Positions 55,678 to 63,856 of a DNA stretch of 64,000 nucleotides are shown piece after piece. This stretch comes from Acidobacteria bacterium Mor1. Lineage in GTDB: Bacteria > Acidobacteriota > Polarisedimenticolia > Polarisedimenticolales > Polarisedimenticolaceae. A program made the translations under genes and the position numbers. Under the pieces are notes generated by a model. That model saw only the letters and a list, made by a program, of their open reading frames with translations. It was not told the DNA's origin and did not search any database. The stretch covers positions 5,201,672 through 5,265,671 of the forward strand of contig CP011806.1 in the NCBI GenBank assembly GCA_001664505.1, given 5' to 3'. How positions within the stretch are numbered: the first letter of the stretch is position 1; the number at the start of each line of letters is the position of its first letter.

Positions 55678-55840
55678 TTCCCATACGTGCAACCGGCCGA
55701 TACGTCCGGGAGCCTCCGTTCGTCTCCCTCAGGGGGGCGGCCGGAGGCCGGGTATGGGAGCGAAGCAGGAGAGGCCATCCAAGCCGGGGCCCGGAGCGGG
55801 GTTGACCGTTTCGGCGCGCGAGCCTACGCTCTTCGGTGAG

Positions 55841-56788
55841 ATGACCGAGCCGCTATTCAGCGTTGTCATTCCGACCTACAACCGCGCCCGCTACGTGGCC
55901 GAGGCGGTTCAGAGTGTCCTCGACCAGACTCAACCCGAGGTCGAGGTCATCGTGGTCGATGACGGATCCCAGGACAACACCGAGGAGGTGTTGCGCCAGT
56001 TCGGCGATCGCATCTCCTACATCCACCAGAAAAACCGGGGGATGGCCGCCGCCCGCAATCGCGGCATCGCCGAGGCCCGGGGCGAGTACGTCGGGCTGTT
56101 GGACTCCGACGACCTCTGGCAGCCGGCGTTGCTGGAACGGGTCAAACAGGTCTTCGACGAACATCCCGAGGCTGGGGCGGTGTTCCTGGCCGAACAGGAG
56201 TTCGACTGCCGGGGGAACATCGATCCCCGGGTGCATTCGAAGCGGACCCCGGGCAAGTTCTTCACCCCTGCGGGGATGATCGGCCGGGACACCGGCGTGG
56301 GCTCCGGGCGGCCTCCGGTGGTTCGCCGTCGGATCTTCGATCTCCACGGCACCTACGACGAGTCGCTCTGCGGAGCCTGGGATTGCGAGATCTGGATTCG
56401 CTACTCCTTCGACGTGCCGATGGCGCTGCTCGAGGAGCCGCTGGTGCTGCGCCGGGTCCACGACGACAACTACAGCTCGGACCAGGTCAAGGACTCCCGG
56501 GCGTGGCTGGCGATCCTGGAGCGAGTGGCCGAACGGCATCCGGAGTTTCCCGCCCAACATCCCCGGGTCTACCGGCGGACGCTGGGCAAGAATCATCTGC
56601 GTCTCGGCCGCGAACTCCTGGCCCGTAGCGCGGTCGATCCGGAGCTGCGCCGCGAGGCACGCCGGCATCTCCGGCGCTCGATCCGCACCTACCCCTGGTT
56701 CGGCCGCGCCTGGAGCTACCTCGCCTGGAGCTATCTGATGCCCGAGAGCTACGCGCTCTGGCGGCGCTACCAGTTGTCTCGCCGCTGA
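55841..56788 (+). CDS. GT2 family glycosyltransferase
   Basis: About 315 residues. The GT-A domain is clear: FSVVIPTYNRARYVAEAVQS, VEVIVVDDGSQDNTEEVLRQ, GMAAARNRGIAEARGEYVGL and LDSDDLWQPALLERV, with the DSDD metal site. The acceptor region has GAWDCEIWIRYSFDVPMALL and LVLRRVHDDNYS. The C-terminus (GRAWSYLAWSYLMPESYALW) is amphipathic and could touch the membrane. ATG 55841 is the likely start; the longer frame to 55754 adds only low-complexity residues. First gene of the second glycan group, eight bases before a GT4 gene. Confidence 0.9.
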   Translation: MTEPLFSVVIPTYNRARYVAEAVQSVLDQTQPEVEVIVVDDGSQDNTEEVLRQFGDRISYIHQKNRGMAAARNRGIAEARGEYVGLLDSDDLWQPALLERVKQVFDEHPEAGAVFLAEQEFDCRGNIDPRVHSKRTPGKFFTPAGMIGRDTGVGSGRPPVVRRRIFDLHGTYDESLCGAWDCEIWIRYSFDVPMALLEEPLVLRRVHDDNYSSDQVKDSRAWLAILERVAERHPEFPAQHPRVYRRTLGKNHLRLGRELLARSAVDPELRREARRHLRRSIRTYPWFGRAWSYLAWSYLMPESYALWRRYQLSRR

Positions 56789-56795
56789 CCGCGGC

Positions 56796-58025
56796 ATGCG
56801 GATCGTTCACACCTTCATCAAGTACCCGCCGGCCATCGGCGGCCACGAGCGCTACGTCCAGGACCTGGTCGAGGGGCTGCGCGGCCGGGGCTATGACGCC
56901 CGGGTGGTGACCAGCACCCTGCGCAAGCACATCGCCTCGCGAAAGCGGCCCCGGTTGCTGCGCCGGCTGGACGCCCTGCGCGGCACCGGTGGCGCCAACG
57001 CCGAGTTGTTTCTGGATGGCCCCTACGCCGAGGTCAACGGCGTCCCGGTGACCCGCCTGGACCCGCGGCTGCCGCTGTCCCGCAAGATCGAGCTCAAGGG
57101 CCTGCGCGAGACCCTGATCGCCATGAAGCCCGACGTGATCCACGCCCACGACATCTGGCGGGACTCCTTCGAGGTCAGCATCGACGTGGCCCGGGAGCTC
57201 GGCGTTCCGCTGCTGCTGAACACCGTCTACCACGATCTCTCGGGCTCGAAGCGGGCGGAGCGCTGGGGCCGGCACTTTCGCGGAATGGTCGAGCGGCTGC
57301 CGGCCGGGACGCCGGTGTTCTTCAACACGCCGTGGGAAGGGGAGCAGCTCGCGAAACTCGGAGTCCGCTTCCCGCAGACCGATCTGTTGCCTCCGTCCCT
57401 GGATGCCGAGGCGTTGGATGCGCTTCCCGAGGTCGAGGTGCCGGGATTGCCCGAGGGCAGGGTGATCGTCAGCTGCGTGGGGCGCATGCACGCGGGCAAA
57501 CGGATGGACCTCCTGATCCGGGCCTTCGCGGCGGCTCTGGGGAAACTTCGAGAACGGGACGAGGCCACCGCCCAGCGAGCGCATCTGGTGCTGGCCGGTT
57601 TCCGGGAGACCGACGAAGATTACCTGGCCCTGGCCGAGGCCTGCGGCATCGGCGACCGGTTTTCACTGCTGCTCGACCGGCCGCGGGAGCAGATCGTCCA
57701 GGTGCTGCGGCGGAGTTCGGTGTTCGCCCTGCCCTCGGCCTGCGAGACCTTCGGCATCGTCGTGCTCGAAGCCTGGGCCACCGGGAACCTGGTGCTGGTC
57801 AGCGACAAGTGGGCGCTTCCCTACGTCGTGCGTGACGGTGTCGATGGCCGGATCTGCAGCGACGAAGCATGGCCGGAGATGCTGGCCCAGGCCCTGCTCG
57901 ATTCCCGGCGCCCCGAGGGGCGGGCCCTGGTCGAGGCGGGGATGCAAACGGTGCGGCGGGACCATACCCGCGAGGCGCGGCTCGACCGCCTGGCCGCTCA
58001 TCTCGAACGGCTGGCTGCCTCGTAG
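56796..58025 (+). CDS. GT4 family glycosyltransferase
   Basis: 409 residues. The N-terminus MRIVHTFIKYPPAIGGHERY is the usual GT4 opening with the glycine-rich GGHE loop. VIHAHDIWRDSFEVSIDVAR follows. The donor half has VIVSCVGRMHAGKRMDLLIR, HLVLAGFRETDEDYLALAEA, RSSVFALPSACETFGIVVLE with E-x7-E, and AWATGNLVLVSD. It belongs with the preceding GT2 gene in one unit. Its last 28 bases overlap the end of the convergent GT4 gene on the other strand. Confidence 0.9.
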   Translation: MRIVHTFIKYPPAIGGHERYVQDLVEGLRGRGYDARVVTSTLRKHIASRKRPRLLRRLDALRGTGGANAELFLDGPYAEVNGVPVTRLDPRLPLSRKIELKGLRETLIAMKPDVIHAHDIWRDSFEVSIDVARELGVPLLLNTVYHDLSGSKRAERWGRHFRGMVERLPAGTPVFFNTPWEGEQLAKLGVRFPQTDLLPPSLDAEALDALPEVEVPGLPEGRVIVSCVGRMHAGKRMDLLIRAFAAALGKLRERDEATAQRAHLVLAGFRETDEDYLALAEACGIGDRFSLLLDRPREQIVQVLRRSSVFALPSACETFGIVVLEAWATGNLVLVSDKWALPYVVRDGVDGRICSDEAWPEMLAQALLDSRRPEGRALVEAGMQTVRRDHTREARLDRLAAHLERLAAS

Positions 58026-59209
58026 ACCTCGGCGGTCCGCTCCGCCAGCCGCTCCCAGCTGAAACGACTCCGGACCTTCTCCCGGCCGGCCTGGCCCATG
58101 CGATCGGCGGCGGCAGGGTCGCCGAGAAGCCGGCTCACCGCGTCCGCCAGCGGCGCGGCCGCCGGTTCGATCAGCAGGCCGTCGGTTTCGTGGTCGACGA
58201 CGCAGGCGACCGAGGGGAGCCCGACGCCGACGACCGGCCGGCCGCAGGCCCAGGCTTCGGTGAACACGCCGCCGAAGCTCTCGGCGGTCGAGGGGAGCGC
58301 CAGCAGGGCGCAACCGGCGAGCAGCGCGGTCTTCCCCGGGAGATCGACCTCGCCCAGGTTGACGATCCGCGGGTCGTCGCAGGCATCGAAGCGCGCCGTC
58401 GATTCCGGCGTGTCCGGGCCGGCGAAGACGATGCGCGCATCGGGATGGCGCTCGAGAATCGCCGGAGCCGCGTCGAGCAGGGTGTCCCACCCCTTGTAGC
58501 CCGCCTTGCGGCCGAGAAAAAGCACGTAGGGAGCGTTCACCCCTCGTTGGGCGAAAGGGTTCACGGCGGAGCCGACGGCGAATCCGTTATCGTCGAGGAT
58601 CGGCCCGATGCCGGTGACGTGGACCTTCTCGGCGGCGACACCCTTCGAGCGGATCAGGGTTTCCCGCTCGGACTCGGTCAAGGCGATCACTCCATCGGCC
58701 GCCCGGAAGATCCGGTCGTAGTGGCGGTACTTCCCGCCGTCCCAGCCGGGGTGATGCAGCGGGGTCACGACCCAGGGGATGCCCTGTTCCTCGGCGTATT
58801 GCCGGGCGGCCTGGGGCAGGTGCTCACAGCCCATGCGCAGGATGTGAACCAGGTCGGGGCGCGCGTCGACGGCCGCGCGGTAGAACGGGGCCAGCAACCC
58901 CGCCAGCCGGCGGATCGCCAGCCCGCGCAACGGACGCTGCCGGTAGAGGGATGTCCAGGGGCGCATCCGCGCCTTGGTCGCGTCGTCGAAGCCGAGGCGG
59001 TTAACCGGCACGCCGTCATGTTCGTAGCGTAGCGGCGGGTCGGCCTCGGTGGTCGAGCCCCGCAACCAGTCGGAGCGGGAGCGGGACCACTGGCAGATCA
59101 CCTGAACGTCGGCGCCACGCCGGGACATCTCCCGTACCAGCCGGTGCAGATGGATCTCGCCGCCGCCGATGCTCGGTGGATAGGCCAGCGACGTGTAGAG
59201 GATCCTCAC
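57998..59209 (-). CDS. GT4 family glycosyltransferase
   Basis: About 403 residues starting at GTG 59209, which overlaps the TGA of the upstream membrane protein. It opens RILYTSLAYPPSIGGGEIHL, very like the convergent gene. Further parts: LVHILRMGCEHLPQAARQYA, FRAADGVIALTESERETLIR, VTGIGPILDDNGFAVGSAV, YVLFLGRKAGYKGWDTLLDA, ARIVFAGPDTPESTARFDAC and LLALPSTAESFGGVFTEAWA with the donor-site glutamates. It forms one unit with the GT-C-like gene and the phosphatase upstream. Confidence 0.9.
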   Translation of the reverse strand: MRILYTSLAYPPSIGGGEIHLHRLVREMSRRGADVQVICQWSRSRSDWLRGSTTEADPPLRYEHDGVPVNRLGFDDATKARMRPWTSLYRQRPLRGLAIRRLAGLLAPFYRAAVDARPDLVHILRMGCEHLPQAARQYAEEQGIPWVVTPLHHPGWDGGKYRHYDRIFRAADGVIALTESERETLIRSKGVAAEKVHVTGIGPILDDNGFAVGSAVNPFAQRGVNAPYVLFLGRKAGYKGWDTLLDAAPAILERHPDARIVFAGPDTPESTARFDACDDPRIVNLGEVDLPGKTALLAGCALLALPSTAESFGGVFTEAWACGRPVVGVGLPSVACVVDHETDGLLIEPAAAPLADAVSRLLGDPAAADRMGQAGREKVRSRFSWERLAERTAEVYEAASRSR

Positions 59210-60531
59210 GCCTGCGGGTCCCGCCCCGCCAGCACCGCCAGCGGCAGCAGGCCGGCGATGAAGAACCAGTAGTTGGCGAAGGCGTGGGTGCCGAGCATGA
59301 ACGCGGTACCGAGGACGGCGGCCAGCGCCGCTGCGAAACCGAACGCGGTATGGGAATGCCGGCGGAGAATCACGCTCAACAGCAGCGGCACGCCGGCCAC
59401 CAGCCAGATCGGCGGGTGCCAGACGATATCGAACGAGGCCAGCAGCCCGGCGATGTTGCTGGCGTCGAAGCGGGTCGGGACCGAGGCGTGGAAGCCCACG
59501 TTGGCCCGCCACAGACCCGACGGATCCCACAGGGCGAAGGGCAGCATGGTGGCCACCCCGACGGCCCCGCCGATCAGCATCCGCCGATTGGCTTCGGGGC
59601 GTTTCGGATGGATCAAGAGCAGCACCGTCAGGGCGAAGTACTGCTTGCTGGCAAACAGCAGCCCCAATCCGGTCGCCCCAGCCAGGGGCGCGCGCCGCCA
59701 GAAGGCCAGCGCCAGGGCGGCGAGTCCCAGCCCCAGCGCCTCGGTCCAGGAAAACTCCAGCATGTAGGTCCAGCCCGGCTGAACCGCCAGGGCAAGCACG
59801 ATCCAGCTGCCGACCCGGTAGGTCTCTCCGCTGAGCCGGGCCGCCATCAGCCAGGCAGCGGTCAGCACCAGCAGCCAACCGGCGAGGCTGGTGAACCGGG
59901 GGTCGCCGCCGATCCAGGTGCCGGCGGTGTAGGCCACCGCCGTGACCGGAGGGTAGAGGTACCCCTGAATCATCGTCCCCGCCGGGACCAGCGGAGAGGT
60001 GTCCTCGACCAGCACGTCACTGTAGGGGCTGACGCCTCGGGAAAAACTGTCCGCAGCCCCGAGGTGCAGGTTGTACACGTCGATCTCGGGGTCGGGGAAG
60101 GCGAGAATCGTCCAGATGCTTCCGATCAGGGTGGTGCCCAGGATGATGGCGGCGATCGTCTTGCGGCGGTCGAAGCCGCTCCGTTGGAGAATCCAGATGC
60201 CGCCCAGGGCGGCGAGCCACAACCCGCTCCATCCGTAGGCGATCAGTTCCGGATCGGCGACGGTGGGTACCGGTTCCAGCCGTGGGTCGACCACCCCGGC
60301 CAGCCAGAGCAGCCCGACCAACCCGCGGATCGCCTTGCCTGCGCCGGGTCCTTCGCCGTCGCCGCCGAGAATGCGCGCCCAAGCGACTCCCAGCGCGACC
60401 AGACCGGCGATCACCCAGACCAGGTTGATGCCGTCGGCCTTGCGGATGGCGAAGGATAGGGCGGTGAAGCCGAGCAGGAGCGCCCATTCGCTGCGCCGGA
60501 AGTGGGGTTCGGTGCTCACCGGCCGAAGCAT
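59206..60531 (-). CDS. Polytopic GT-C-like glycosyltransferase (GT87/DUF2029 type)
   Basis: 441 residues and about ten to twelve membrane helices. The first periplasmic loop, PDPEIDVYNLHLGAADSFSR followed by GVSPYSD, has the acidic and NPY-like pattern of DUF2029/GT87 mannosyltransferases. Later helices include WTEALGLGLAALALAFWRRA and GLGLLFASKQYFALTVLLLI, where the KQ pair is also typical. It should use a lipid-phosphate sugar donor on the outer face of the inner membrane. The start is ATG 60531; GTG 60519 is an alternative, with TATGCT seven bases upstream. It is 13 bases after the phosphatase gene. Confidence 0.82.
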   Translation of the reverse strand: MLRPVSTEPHFRRSEWALLLGFTALSFAIRKADGINLVWVIAGLVALGVAWARILGGDGEGPGAGKAIRGLVGLLWLAGVVDPRLEPVPTVADPELIAYGWSGLWLAALGGIWILQRSGFDRRKTIAAIILGTTLIGSIWTILAFPDPEIDVYNLHLGAADSFSRGVSPYSDVLVEDTSPLVPAGTMIQGYLYPPVTAVAYTAGTWIGGDPRFTSLAGWLLVLTAAWLMAARLSGETYRVGSWIVLALAVQPGWTYMLEFSWTEALGLGLAALALAFWRRAPLAGATGLGLLFASKQYFALTVLLLIHPKRPEANRRMLIGGAVGVATMLPFALWDPSGLWRANVGFHASVPTRFDASNIAGLLASFDIVWHPPIWLVAGVPLLLSVILRRHSHTAFGFAAALAAVLGTAFMLGTHAFANYWFFIAGLLPLAVLAGRDPQA

Positions 60532-60544
60532 ATACCGGGGAGGC

Positions 60545-61138
60545 TCACGGAATCTCGAGGGGCCGAACCACCGCGAGATCGCCGACGAAATCGATGACGT
60601 GCACGTCGGCGTTCTGCTGGCGGTACTCCAGGGCCTCCTCGTAGCTCAGCCCGAGCAGGCGCATGATCAGCACCACGTTGGTGCCGCCGTGGGCGACCAC
60701 CAGCACGTTCCCTTCGGTGTGGCGCAGCCGGATCAATTCCATCGCCTTCATCGCCCGCCGGGCGTGCTGCTCCAGGGACTCTCCGCCGTCGAGGGTGTCC
60801 CCGGGGTCGCGGCGCCGGGTGCGAAAGGACTCGGCGAGGGTCGCGTCGGGTCCGCGCAGCTCCTTGCCCTCGAACATTCCCATGGCCTGTTCGTTGAGCT
60901 CCTCGAGCTGGGTCGTCGGCGCGCGATCGGCCAGCGGGGCGGCGGTCTCGATACTGCGCCGCAGGGTGCTGGTGTAGATGTGGTCGAGGGGGATCGATTC
61001 GAGGCGGCGGGCCAGATCGGCGGCCTGGGCGTGTCCCCGTTCGTTGAGGGGAATGTCGCTGTGCCCCTGGACGCGGCGGATCGCGTTCCATTCGGTTTCG
61101 CCGTGACGGGCCAGAAGCAGCCTGAGAAAGCCGAGCAT
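60545..61138 (-). CDS. Histidine phosphatase family protein
   Basis: 197 residues. The catalytic RHG motif is LLLARHGETEWNAIRRVQGH near the N-terminus. The second conserved parts are IYTSTLRRSIETAAPLADRA, LEELNEQAMGMFEGKELRGP, GGESLEQHARRAMKAMELIR and the distal histidine in VLVVAHGGTNVVLIMRLLGL. This fits the cofactor-independent phosphoglycerate-mutase/cobalamin-phosphatase-type clade; substrates vary. It is upstream of the GT-C and GT4 genes on the minus strand, so it could dephosphorylate a sugar-nucleotide precursor, but this is only an inference from position. Confidence 0.9.
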   Translation of the reverse strand: MLGFLRLLLARHGETEWNAIRRVQGHSDIPLNERGHAQAADLARRLESIPLDHIYTSTLRRSIETAAPLADRAPTTQLEELNEQAMGMFEGKELRGPDATLAESFRTRRRDPGDTLDGGESLEQHARRAMKAMELIRLRHTEGNVLVVAHGGTNVVLIMRLLGLSYEEALEYRQQNADVHVIDFVGDLAVVRPLEIP

Positions 61139-61190: not shown

Positions 61191-62024
61191 ATGCCGCGCC
61201 TATCGCATGGCCGGGGCGCCCTCGCGCTGCTGGCGCTGATCCTCCTGCTCGGGGCTCCCTCGGGGGCGGGCGAAGCGCCGACCGACGACACCGAGGTCGA
61301 GCGCTTCCTGCGCAAGGGCAAGATCGTCTCGATCGAGCCGATCGGGACCGGTGTGACCCGCCCCAAGCGGGTGACCCTCGAACTCGACGGGGTGACCCTG
61401 CGCGCGGCGTTCAAGAACGTCGATTCCCGCATCGATCGTGCGGTGCTGCAAGACGGCACCGTGCAGCTGGCCTTCACCGACAGCTTCCACAACGAGCGGG
61501 CTGCCTACCTGCTCGCCCGCAAGCTCGGCATTCGAATGGTGCCCGTGACGGTGGTGCGTTCGATCGGCGCCGACCGCGGCGCGCTGACGATCTGGGTCGA
61601 GGATGCCATTACCCAGAAGGCTTTCCGCGAGAAGGGTGTTGAGCCCGACGAGAGCCTCGCGTTCCAGCGGGATCTGATGGCGGTGTTCGACGCCCTGATC
61701 CACAACGACGATCGCAATACGGGGAATCAGCTGATCACTCCGGACAACCGGCTGCACCTGATCGACCATTCCCGCAGTTTCCGCAATGCCGGCGTGCTGC
61801 CCGAACATTTTCTGACCGGCCGTTACCGGCTGACCCGGGAGCTGTTCGAGAGCATCGAGCAGCTGGACGGTGACGAGGTCAAGAAGCTGCTCCGGCGGCA
61901 CCTCAACGGCAAGCAGATCAAGGCGCTGATGGCCCGCCGGGACCAGGTGGTGACGAAACTGCAGGTCGATCTGCAGAATCATGGGGAAGAGGCGCTCTTC
62001 ACCGACTGGACCCACTTGCACTGA
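61191..62024 (+). CDS. Exported PI3/4-kinase-like (FAM20/HipA-superfamily-like) protein
   Basis: 277 residues. A signal peptide (LALLALILLLGAPSGAG) is followed by a compact kinase-like domain. Lys75 in LRAAFKNVD may bind ATP. Glu102 in SFHNERAAYLLARKLGIRMV matches the glutamate helix of the PI3/4-kinase and FAM20 superfamily. The catalytic loop is ALIHNDDRNTGNQL (His171 to Asn179, with Asp173 or Asp174 as base) and the metal-binding aspartate is Asp192 in LHLIDHSRSF. All key residues expected of an active enzyme are present. A secreted kinase acting on periplasmic or surface targets is predicted. The leaderless promoter lies just upstream; it is followed by the CRTAC1 gene. Confidence 0.75.
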   Translation: MPRLSHGRGALALLALILLLGAPSGAGEAPTDDTEVERFLRKGKIVSIEPIGTGVTRPKRVTLELDGVTLRAAFKNVDSRIDRAVLQDGTVQLAFTDSFHNERAAYLLARKLGIRMVPVTVVRSIGADRGALTIWVEDAITQKAFREKGVEPDESLAFQRDLMAVFDALIHNDDRNTGNQLITPDNRLHLIDHSRSFRNAGVLPEHFLTGRYRLTRELFESIEQLDGDEVKKLLRRHLNGKQIKALMARRDQVVTKLQVDLQNHGEEALFTDWTHLH

Positions 62025-62071
62025 CCCGCTCGTTAATGTTGACCGACCCACGGGGCGACAGGGACGCGAAC

Positions 62072-63856
62072 TTGAGGCAGCGACAGCGTACGGGCCGAGC
62101 CGGCCTGGCTCTTCTATTCAGCCTGGCGATTCTCGCGACCGGCTGCCCCACGGGCAGCGACGACGGGGACGACGCCGCGTCGACCGGCGGTTCCGCATCG
62201 TCAGCGGCGCCGAAGGGCCGAGAGATCTTCATCGATCGCGCCGCCGAGAGCGGGGTGGACTTCATCCATTTCAACGGGATGACCGGCAAGATGTACACCG
62301 CCGAGGTGACCGCTGCCGGGTGCGGGGTCTTCGACTACGACAACGACGGCGATCTGGACCTGTATCTGCTCCAGGGCAACGTGCTCGAGCCGGGCAAGGA
62401 ACTCTCCGACGCTGAGTACCCCTTCGCCGGGGACGGTGTCCCGCAGGATCGGTTGCTGCGCAACGACAGCGACGGCAGCCTGCGTTTCACCGACGTAACC
62501 GAGGCCAGCGGGATCGAGGCATTGGGCTACGGCATGGGCGTGGCTACCGGGGACTACGACGGCGACGGCTGGACCGATCTCTACGTGGCCAACCTGGGAC
62601 CGAATCAGCTCTGGCGAAACCAGGGTGACGGCACCTTCGAGGAGGTCGCCGACGCGGCCGGTGTGCAGGACCCTCGCTGGAGTGTGCCCGCCAGTTTCTT
62701 CGACTACGACCGGGACGGCGATCTCGATCTCTACGTCGGCGCTTACGTCCACGCGCCGCTGGATTCCGACAAACGCTGCACCCGGGTCACCGGCGCGTTG
62801 GACTTCTGCGGGCCGATGGCCTACGACGCGCTGCCCGACCGGCTGTTCCGCAACGACGGGGGCCGTTTCGTCGACGTGACCCGGGAATCCGGCATCCAGC
62901 GCGCCTTCGGTTCCGCGCTCGGGTCGACCGCCTCGGACTTCAACGGCGACGGCTGGATCGACCTCTACGTGGCCAACGACGGCCGGCCCAATCAACTCTG
63001 GATCAACCAGCAGAATGGCCGCTTCGTCGACGACTCGATGCTGAGCGGCACGGCGGTCAACGCCGAGGGGATGGCCGAGGCCAGCATGGGGGTCGAGGCG
63101 GACGACTTCGACGGTGACGGCGACGACGATCTGTTCATGACCCATCTGCTGGGCGAGACCAACACCGTCTATCGCAACGACGGCAGCGGCATGTTCCAGG
63201 ATGTCTCGGTCTCGACCGGACTGGGCGTGCCGAGCCGCTGGGCCACCGCGTTCGGCGCCGCGTCCATCGACTACGACAACGACGGTTGGCTCGATATCCT
63301 GACCGTCAACGGCGAGGTGCGGATTATCGAGGAGCAGGCCCGGCAGGACATTCCCTTCCCCCTGCGCCAACCGAACCAGCTGTTTCACAACCTGGGTGAC
63401 GGCCGTTTCGAGGAGCGCAGCGCCGAGGCCGGTGAGGCGTTCACCCGGCAGGAGGTCAGTCGCGGCGCTGCCGTGGGCGATTTCGACAACGACGGCGATC
63501 ACGATGTCCTGATCCTCAACAACAACGGGCCTGCCGAGCTGTTGATCAACGCCGTCGGCCAGGATGCTCATTGGCTGGGACTGCGGCTGGTCGGTGGGAG
63601 CCCCGCCCGCGACATGTTGGGCGCCCGGATCGAGGTCACCCTCGGCGGCGGCGGCAAACGTTGGCGCCGGGTCCGCACCGACGGCAGCTACGCGTCGGCG
63701 CGTGATCCGCGGGTCCTGGTCGGTCTCGGGAGCGTTACCGCCGTGGAGGCGGTGACGGTACACTGGCCCGATGGAAGTGCAGAGACATGGCGCGATCTCG
63801 AAATCGATCGATACACCACGCTGACCCAGGGGCAGGGCAGCCCCGCGGGCTCATGA
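62072..63856 (+). CDS. CRTAC1-type FG-GAP lipoprotein with ASPIC/UnbV domain
   Basis: About 594 residues. TTG 62072 is preferred because AGGGA lies seven bases upstream and the product then begins with a lipoprotein signal peptide (LALLFSLAILATGC); ATG 62036 is the alternative. FG-GAP/VCBS blades with calcium loops recur: FDYDNDGDLDLYLLQGN, TGDYDGDGWTDLYVANLGPN, FDYDRDGDLDLYVGAYVHA, DFNGDGWIDLYVANDGRPNQ, DDFDGDGDDDLFMTHLLGET and IDYDNDGWLDILTVNGEVR. The C-terminal ASPIC/UnbV domain shows VTLGGGGKRWRRVRTDGSYA and VHWPDGSAETWRDLEIDRYT. It is a cell-surface calcium-binding propeller. The next gene starts in its stop codon (ATGA). Confidence 0.9.
   Translation: MRQRQRTGRAGLALLFSLAILATGCPTGSDDGDDAASTGGSASSAAPKGREIFIDRAAESGVDFIHFNGMTGKMYTAEVTAAGCGVFDYDNDGDLDLYLLQGNVLEPGKELSDAEYPFAGDGVPQDRLLRNDSDGSLRFTDVTEASGIEALGYGMGVATGDYDGDGWTDLYVANLGPNQLWRNQGDGTFEEVADAAGVQDPRWSVPASFFDYDRDGDLDLYVGAYVHAPLDSDKRCTRVTGALDFCGPMAYDALPDRLFRNDGGRFVDVTRESGIQRAFGSALGSTASDFNGDGWIDLYVANDGRPNQLWINQQNGRFVDDSMLSGTAVNAEGMAEASMGVEADDFDGDGDDDLFMTHLLGETNTVYRNDGSGMFQDVSVSTGLGVPSRWATAFGAASIDYDNDGWLDILTVNGEVRIIEEQARQDIPFPLRQPNQLFHNLGDGRFEERSAEAGEAFTRQEVSRGAAVGDFDNDGDHDVLILNNNGPAELLINAVGQDAHWLGLRLVGGSPARDMLGARIEVTLGGGGKRWRRVRTDGSYASARDPRVLVGLGSVTAVEAVTVHWPDGSAETWRDLEIDRYTTLTQGQGSPAGS

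Follow-up and report, generated by a model that had tools for sequence, protein, structure and literature searches.

The window analyzed here, a stretch of 64,000 nucleotides from Acidobacteria bacterium Mor1, encodes a Fam20-like kinase with a signal-peptide-like N-terminus, and we propose that this exported enzyme probably attaches the phosphate in a write/erase phosphorylation system that operates outside the cytoplasm on ATP supplied by a transporter. The first-pass annotation had read the gene as an exported, FAM20-like kinase with an intact active site, and this part of the interpretation stood. It had also tied the kinase to the adjoining calcium-propeller lipoprotein and phosphatase, a link that gained no support; the recurrent partners are instead a phosphatase of the PPP family (calcineurin-like), either joined to the kinase in one protein or encoded next to it, and an ATP/ADP-translocase-like protein (PF03219).

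The kinase belongs to a large family with signal-peptide-like N-termini

The features of the gene are summarized in Table 1. The ORF starts with ATG and, as the first-pass annotation had stated, encodes a signal-peptide-like N-terminus, MPRLSHGRGALALLALILLLGAPSGAGEA. In the window genome, which is a single contig of 5.985 Mb, the gene is present in one copy at 5.263 Mb.

Table 1. Features of the Fam20-like kinase gene in the window
Feature	Coordinates	Strand	Basis
Complete gene for a Fam20-like kinase of 277 aa, predicted to be secreted	61191..62024	+	ORF/translation, family, AlphaFold2 model, Foldseek, PDB profile searches
Signal-peptide-like N-terminus, residues 1-27	61191..61271	+	Basic n-region, hydrophobic ALALLALILLLG core, small-residue c-region
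K75, predicted beta-3-type ATP-binding Lys (AAFK)	61413..61415	+	Aligned with FK of Fam20 (profile alignment)
D97, Fam20-type second acidic residue	61479..61481	+	Alignment-equivalent to hydra Fam20 Asp152 / C. elegans Fam20 Glu213
E102, canonical alpha-C Glu position	61494..61496	+	Alignment-equivalent to C. elegans Fam20 Glu218
Catalytic loop HNDDRNTGN, residues 171-179, with D174 and N179	61701..61727	+	Column conservation
Predicted metal-binding motif LIDHSRSF with D192 (DFG-type Asp)	61758..61781	+	Column conservation

Relatives are far more numerous than chance would give. Homologous matches numbered 28 in 13 of 60 related genomes together with the window genome, and across 396 genomes of the phylum Acidobacteriota the family was present in 81, with up to seven copies per genome. 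When named contigs were searched with a 9-row alignment as the query, relatives were found in Acidobacteriota, Aminicenantes, Myxococcota/deltaproteobacteria, Desulfatiglandales, and many Gammaproteobacteria, including the cultured genera Lysobacter, Parahaliea, Pseudohalioglobus, Seongchinamella, Aliikangiella, and Shewanella; a search of named genomes with a single sequence returned no relative. The collected loci held 138 distinct family ORFs. Using a strict, simple rule of our own rather than SignalP, we called signal-peptide-like N-termini in 103 of the 121 complete family ORFs versus 59 of 253 conserved neighbor ORFs taken as controls, and most of the 18 family ORFs failing the rule were still signal-peptide-like or had frame or assembly problems. 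In members fused to a phosphatase, the signal peptide immediately precedes the phosphatase part. These N-termini suggested that this large family is mostly secreted.

A second, divergent kinase copy was observed in Shewanella sp. UCD-KL21 (L122:8732-9706), convergent with and adjoining the fusion gene; the PF03219-like gene past this copy reads in two frames, possibly owing to a frameshift.

Fold and sequence profiles place the family closest to Fam20

An AlphaFold2 model of the window protein (27 sequences) gave pLDDT 88 and pTM 0.84, with residues 1 to 24 below 50, and Foldseek bore out the expected FAM20-like kinase fold rather than an unrelated one. Against the PDB, ranks 1 to 3 were DrFam20C1/Fam20A (E values of 6e-9 to 2e-8), with PI4K-IIbeta interleaved at rank 4 (2e-8). 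Since the Fam20 matches had a TM-score (query) of about 0.62 and an rmsd above 6 Å, the likeness of fold is one at the superfamily level. In searches of PDB sequences with family profiles of 27 and 120 members, Fam20 proteins were matched at 5e-7 to 2e-13, with Fam20A at the top (1.6e-13 and 6.7e-13), followed by Fam20C, a Fam20B-type xylosylkinase (2e-10), and C. elegans Fam20, while PI4K-II was weaker (2e-2 to 2e-4, including 1.6e-4 and 3.7e-4). A profile was required, as the same search with the window protein alone yielded noise only.

The window protein scored under the cut-offs of all four domain or family models considered. It reached 11.9 bits for the Pfam Fam20C model (cut-off 26.8; best family member, E value of 0.0021), 18.7 bits for PI3_PI4_kinase (PF00454; gathering cut-off 27.1, passed by the relatives at L126 and L105), and 17.2 bits for HipA_2 (PF20613; gathering cut-off 27, passed by one fusion, L106, with 29.2 bits). 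PI4K type II/PF00454 and HipA_2 share a superfamily with the kinase, and their matches are local, over the catalytic and metal motifs. TIGR03843 (SCO1664 family), an NCBIfam hypothetical equivalog of unknown function, matched residues 100 to 257 with 55.2 bits (6e-15), far under its curated cut-off of 172.4, and matched all 27 members tested (best, 6.6e-18). The TIGR03843/SCO1664 family is cytosolic.

The family is Fam20-like, yet it lies outside Fam20 by the Pfam model, the DRHHYE loop, and the disulfides. Fam20 kinases act along the animal secretory pathway, where they add phosphate to proteins (SxE) and sugars (xylose). They are the best PDB match of the bacterial family by both sequence profile and fold, and with them (Fam20A/B/C, C. 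elegans FAMK-1, and hydra Fam20) the family shares predicted export, the catalytic DR loop, the metal-site Asp, and an N-lobe helix of the form [DE]-x4-E-x-A-A-[FY]-x-L-D-R-x-L, which retains the second acidic residue peculiar to Fam20. In contrast to Fam20, the bacterial kinase is compact (about 250 aa) and often fused to a phosphatase; its catalytic loop is DRNxxN (DRNTGN in the window protein) instead of DRHHYE, with Asn replacing the Fam20 Glu, and its metal motif is IDHS instead of LDNG. Because 111 of the 138 kinase domains contain 0 or 1 Cys (the window protein has none), the conserved disulfide pattern of Fam20 is absent.

A bacterial kinase described as similar to Fam20C is the spore-coat protein CotH (PMC12189002). 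CotH was not recovered with the family in the Pfam or PDB searches. CotH is not known to combine a signal peptide with a phosphatase and a transporter as partners. Fam20 itself has been treated as an animal family (PMC5865150, PMC7948968). In the open-access literature, which leaves out most subscription journals and preprints, we found neither a periplasmic Fam20 kinase nor an account of this family, and no paper linking the three parts described below; given this coverage, the silence is weak evidence of novelty.

The active site is conserved and carries a Fam20-type acidic residue

The first-pass annotation had listed an HNDDRN loop, a downstream IDHS Asp, a helix Glu, and a candidate Lys, and all of these were located (residues 171 to 179, D192, E102, and K75), LIDHS spanning residues 190 to 194. 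The loop and the late Asp proved to be conserved: D192 was present in 136 of 136 family members, D174 in 125, and N179 in 112, with D at the last position in 19 others. The K75 column held 95 K and 34 R (n = 138), and the E102 column 96 E and 33 D (n = 137 with a letter there). To these we add D97, an acidic residue absent from the earlier list, whose column contained 124 D and 12 E (n = 138). The complete set (K/R75, acidic 97 and 102, D174, N/D179, and D192) occurred in 112 of 136 members, including the window protein.

An important residue of Fam20 is a second acidic one, located five residues N-terminal to the canonical alpha-C Glu; it is Asp152 in hydra Fam20, where it pairs with Lys133, Glu213 in the C. 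elegans counterpart, and Gln in the pseudokinase Fam20A (PMC5865150). Since D97 falls at this second position, E102 falls at the canonical one, and position 97 is acidic in 136 of 138 family ORFs, the family is Fam20-like in a specific sense.

Position 75 is R, not K, in one clade, and D174 is missing from some paralogues or clades, so not every family member need be active. The exported kinase fold could alternatively regulate the phosphatase or the transporter as a nucleotide-binding protein or pseudokinase, with little phosphotransfer, as the loss of D174 in some clades (e.g., in the phosphatase-adjoining or -fused kinase of Aminicenantes) and the precedent of Fam20A, a pseudokinase activator (PMC5865150), would allow. 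We judge this improbable, as the full residue set in most members, the window protein among them, is hard to explain without catalysis. We retain the reading of an active kinase, and the paralogues devoid of the catalytic Asp suggest Fam20A-like helpers in some lineages.

Six Aminicenantes loci (L129, L132, L137, L155, L123, and L110) carry a phosphatase-adjoining or -fused kinase with Cys or Arg in place of the catalytic Asp, and nearby tandem kinases at the same loci retain that Asp. By analogy, this is possibly a pseudokinase/kinase pairing like that of Fam20A and Fam20C.

A PPP-family phosphatase is fused to or encoded beside the kinase

Fifty-five of the 138 family ORFs (about 40%) consist of a signal peptide, a PPP-type protein phosphatase domain, and the kinase. 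The PPP motifs GDxHG, GDxxDRG, GNHE, and HGG were found in 54 to 55 of these 55 fusion ORFs, a set itself picked by PPP motifs, and the phosphatase part exceeds the Pfam Metallophos cut-off. Among PDB sequences it is matched best (1.4e-30) by the cold-active protein-tyrosine phosphatase of Shewanella (PPP fold, 1v73/2z72/2zbm), its nearest relative of known structure, which has the PPP motifs in common; unlike that enzyme, the phosphatase here is fused to or co-encoded with a kinase. Modeling of the fusion protein from Lysobacter daejeonensis (L150:6849-8678; pLDDT 93.5, pTM 0.89) gave matches to the Shewanella phosphatase, PP5, and calcineurin for one part and to the Golgi casein kinase 4kqa for the other. 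In Aminicenantes, the phosphatase and the kinases are mostly separate, adjoining genes. A quick kinase tree showed fusion and stand-alone forms intermixed, with about 10 changes between them, and the nearest relative of the window protein was a same-order fusion (SH-aLRT 90); the stand-alone kinase of the window may thus derive from a fusion, or the reverse.

As the partner phosphatase resembles protein phosphatases, protein substrates are favored, whereas the Asp that Fam20B-type enzymes share at position 97 makes a glycan substrate conceivable. The kinase could accordingly be an exported Fam20B-like glycan kinase acting on lipopolysaccharide, exopolysaccharide, or peptidoglycan sugars, with the PPP partner stripping the sugar phosphates. 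Consistent with this, the D97 residue is Asp as in hydra Fam20 rather than Glu as in Fam20C, the Fam20C dimer motif FYFSD is absent from the alignment, the ancestor of animal Fam20 is thought to have been a glycan kinase (PMC5865150, PMC7948968), and glycosyltransferase-like genes lie just upstream in the window. However, the closest relatives of the phosphatase (Shewanella protein-tyrosine phosphatase, PP5, and calcineurin) are protein phosphatases, and no glycosyltransferase was among the recurrent neighbors in the clusters examined. We consider a glycan kinase rather unlikely and prefer an envelope protein as the substrate.

At L113 (4596-6734) and other Halieaceae loci, a gene joining SDF and SBP_bac_3 in one protein (sodium:dicarboxylate symporter and periplasmic solute-binding domain) was seen directly upstream of the kinase/phosphatase fusion.

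An ATP/ADP-translocase-like protein is the recurrent neighbor

The recurrent immediate neighbor of the family is a PF03219 TLC ATP/ADP transporter-like protein. Of the 94 family loci, 45 contained a PF03219-like ORF, which often adjoined the family gene directly or lay less than 100 bases away; these loci come from Gammaproteobacteria, a deltaproteobacterium, Aminicenantes, and Acidobacteriota. A crude estimate of the chance expectation is about 0.7 loci (0.8%). Neighbor clustering by BLAST mostly returned Halieaceae synteny, and it was the listing of immediate neighbors that revealed the transporter. Thirteen of 14 partner proteins tested passed the PF03219 cut-off (21 bits), the one at L149 failing, and the nearest solved sequence relatives were ADP,ATP carriers (9e-6).

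The two genes also occur together across genomes. Among the 396 Acidobacteriota genomes, 75 had both the family and PF03219, 6 the family only, 26 PF03219 only, and 289 neither, for a Fisher p of 1e-50 that ignores kinship and overstates independence, since the genomes are related. The 6 and 26 genomes in which only one of the two was detected count against the system proposed below. Within one taxonomic family, six genomes had both and six had neither (6/6 versus 0/6), and PF03219 was found in 0 of 14 control genomes.

The partner belongs to the NTT/TLC transporters by PF03219. The NTT-HEAT and NTT-HEAT-cNBD proteins of free-living bacteria are uncharacterized and are discussed with no mention of a kinase, and the characterized NTTs are ATP importers in parasites and plastids (PMC5381601), so the direction and the substrate of transport proposed here are guesses. 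On the precedent of these importers, the neighbor could bring in nucleotides or another solute for scavenging, with the kinase/phosphatase as its periplasmic regulator or a salvage enzyme and the phosphatase acting on nucleotides. Yet a kinase that works outside the cytoplasm with an intact ATP site depends on ATP there, the phosphatase half resembles protein phosphatases and not nucleotidases, and the sampled Acidobacteriota genomes, of about 2 to 10 Mb, are unlike those of reduced parasites. Import is in our view unlikely, and we favor a carrier that feeds ATP to the exported kinase.

Seven loci (L106, L111, L112, L116, L118, L146, and L154) have two convergent PF03219-like genes beside the fusion. 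A C-terminal He_PIG (Ig-like) domain is present in the second of these at L106 and in the single ones of L105 and L149.

All three parts are present in the window organism

In the window genome, a PF03219 gene is followed on one strand, at about 5.777 to 5.783 Mb, by a PAS histidine kinase gene and then by the gene for a PPP phosphatase with a signal peptide. This cluster lies some 0.5 Mb from the window kinase, a distance that counts against the proposed system. The PF03219 protein is a TLC-HEAT-cNBD protein of 1063 aa (86 bits) sharing the NTT-HEAT-cNBD architecture of PMC5381601, and the phosphatase, of 385 aa, scores above the Metallophos cut-off. A relative, L038, has the same gene order, but with the phosphatase fused to the kinase. 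With this cluster and the window kinase, all three parts are present in the organism.

Several Polarisedimenticolia-type loci (L167:6749-7933, L038:11525-12715, L052, L042, and L031) share a conserved PAS-type histidine kinase, possibly a regulator, close to the PF03219 transporter and the phosphatase gene.

The genes that flank the kinase in the window did not recur as partners. The histidine phosphatase at 60545-61138 had a counterpart in 0 of 93 other family loci. It resembles the MSMEG_4193 family, which we take to be a neighbor of SCO1664 genes, and we judged its position beside the kinase a coincidence because it is absent from all the other family loci. The ASPIC/FG-GAP (ASPIC-UnbV) lipoprotein at 62036-63856, the calcium-propeller protein of the first-pass annotation, had an ASPIC-type counterpart in only one other locus (L156); as its gene starts 11 bases after the kinase gene, the two may be co-transcribed. 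Further upstream, several glycosyltransferase-like genes at 55754-60531 (one GT2-like, two GT4-like, and one for a GT87-like membrane protein) may make up a cluster for a surface glycan.

A proposed write/erase system outside the cytoplasm

We infer that the kinase would leave the cytoplasm by Sec export for the periplasm or the outer surface, where K75, D97/E102, and D192 would enclose ATP together with Mg or Mn. D174 would serve as the catalytic base in transferring the gamma-phosphate to an envelope substrate, most likely a protein. The signal-peptide PPP-family phosphatase, separate in the window genome, would take the phosphate off, and the NTT/TLC-type carrier, often HEAT fused and in the window genome also cNBD fused, would feed the kinase by exporting ATP through the inner membrane in return for ADP.

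More tentatively, free-living bacteria of several phyla may combine NTT-type ATP/ADP export, a secreted Fam20-like writer, and a secreted PPP eraser, the last two often in one polypeptide, in a dedicated system. Such a system would parallel the kinases of the animal secretory pathway and would possibly be related to their origin. A bacterial family whose best PDB match is Fam20 bears on the origin of the Fam20 kinases, which have been discussed as animal proteins (PMC5865150, PMC7948968). Gene order and co-occurrence with an exported kinase and phosphatase yield a concrete, testable hypothesis for the role of the NTT and NTT-HEAT proteins of free-living bacteria, and the PF03219 partner offers a testable answer to the question, raised by the first-pass annotation, of how ATP would be supplied outside the cytoplasm. 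ATP-dependent phosphorylation beyond the bacterial cytoplasm thereby becomes an experimental question in culturable bacteria, among them Lysobacter, Parahaliea, Aliikangiella, and Shewanella.
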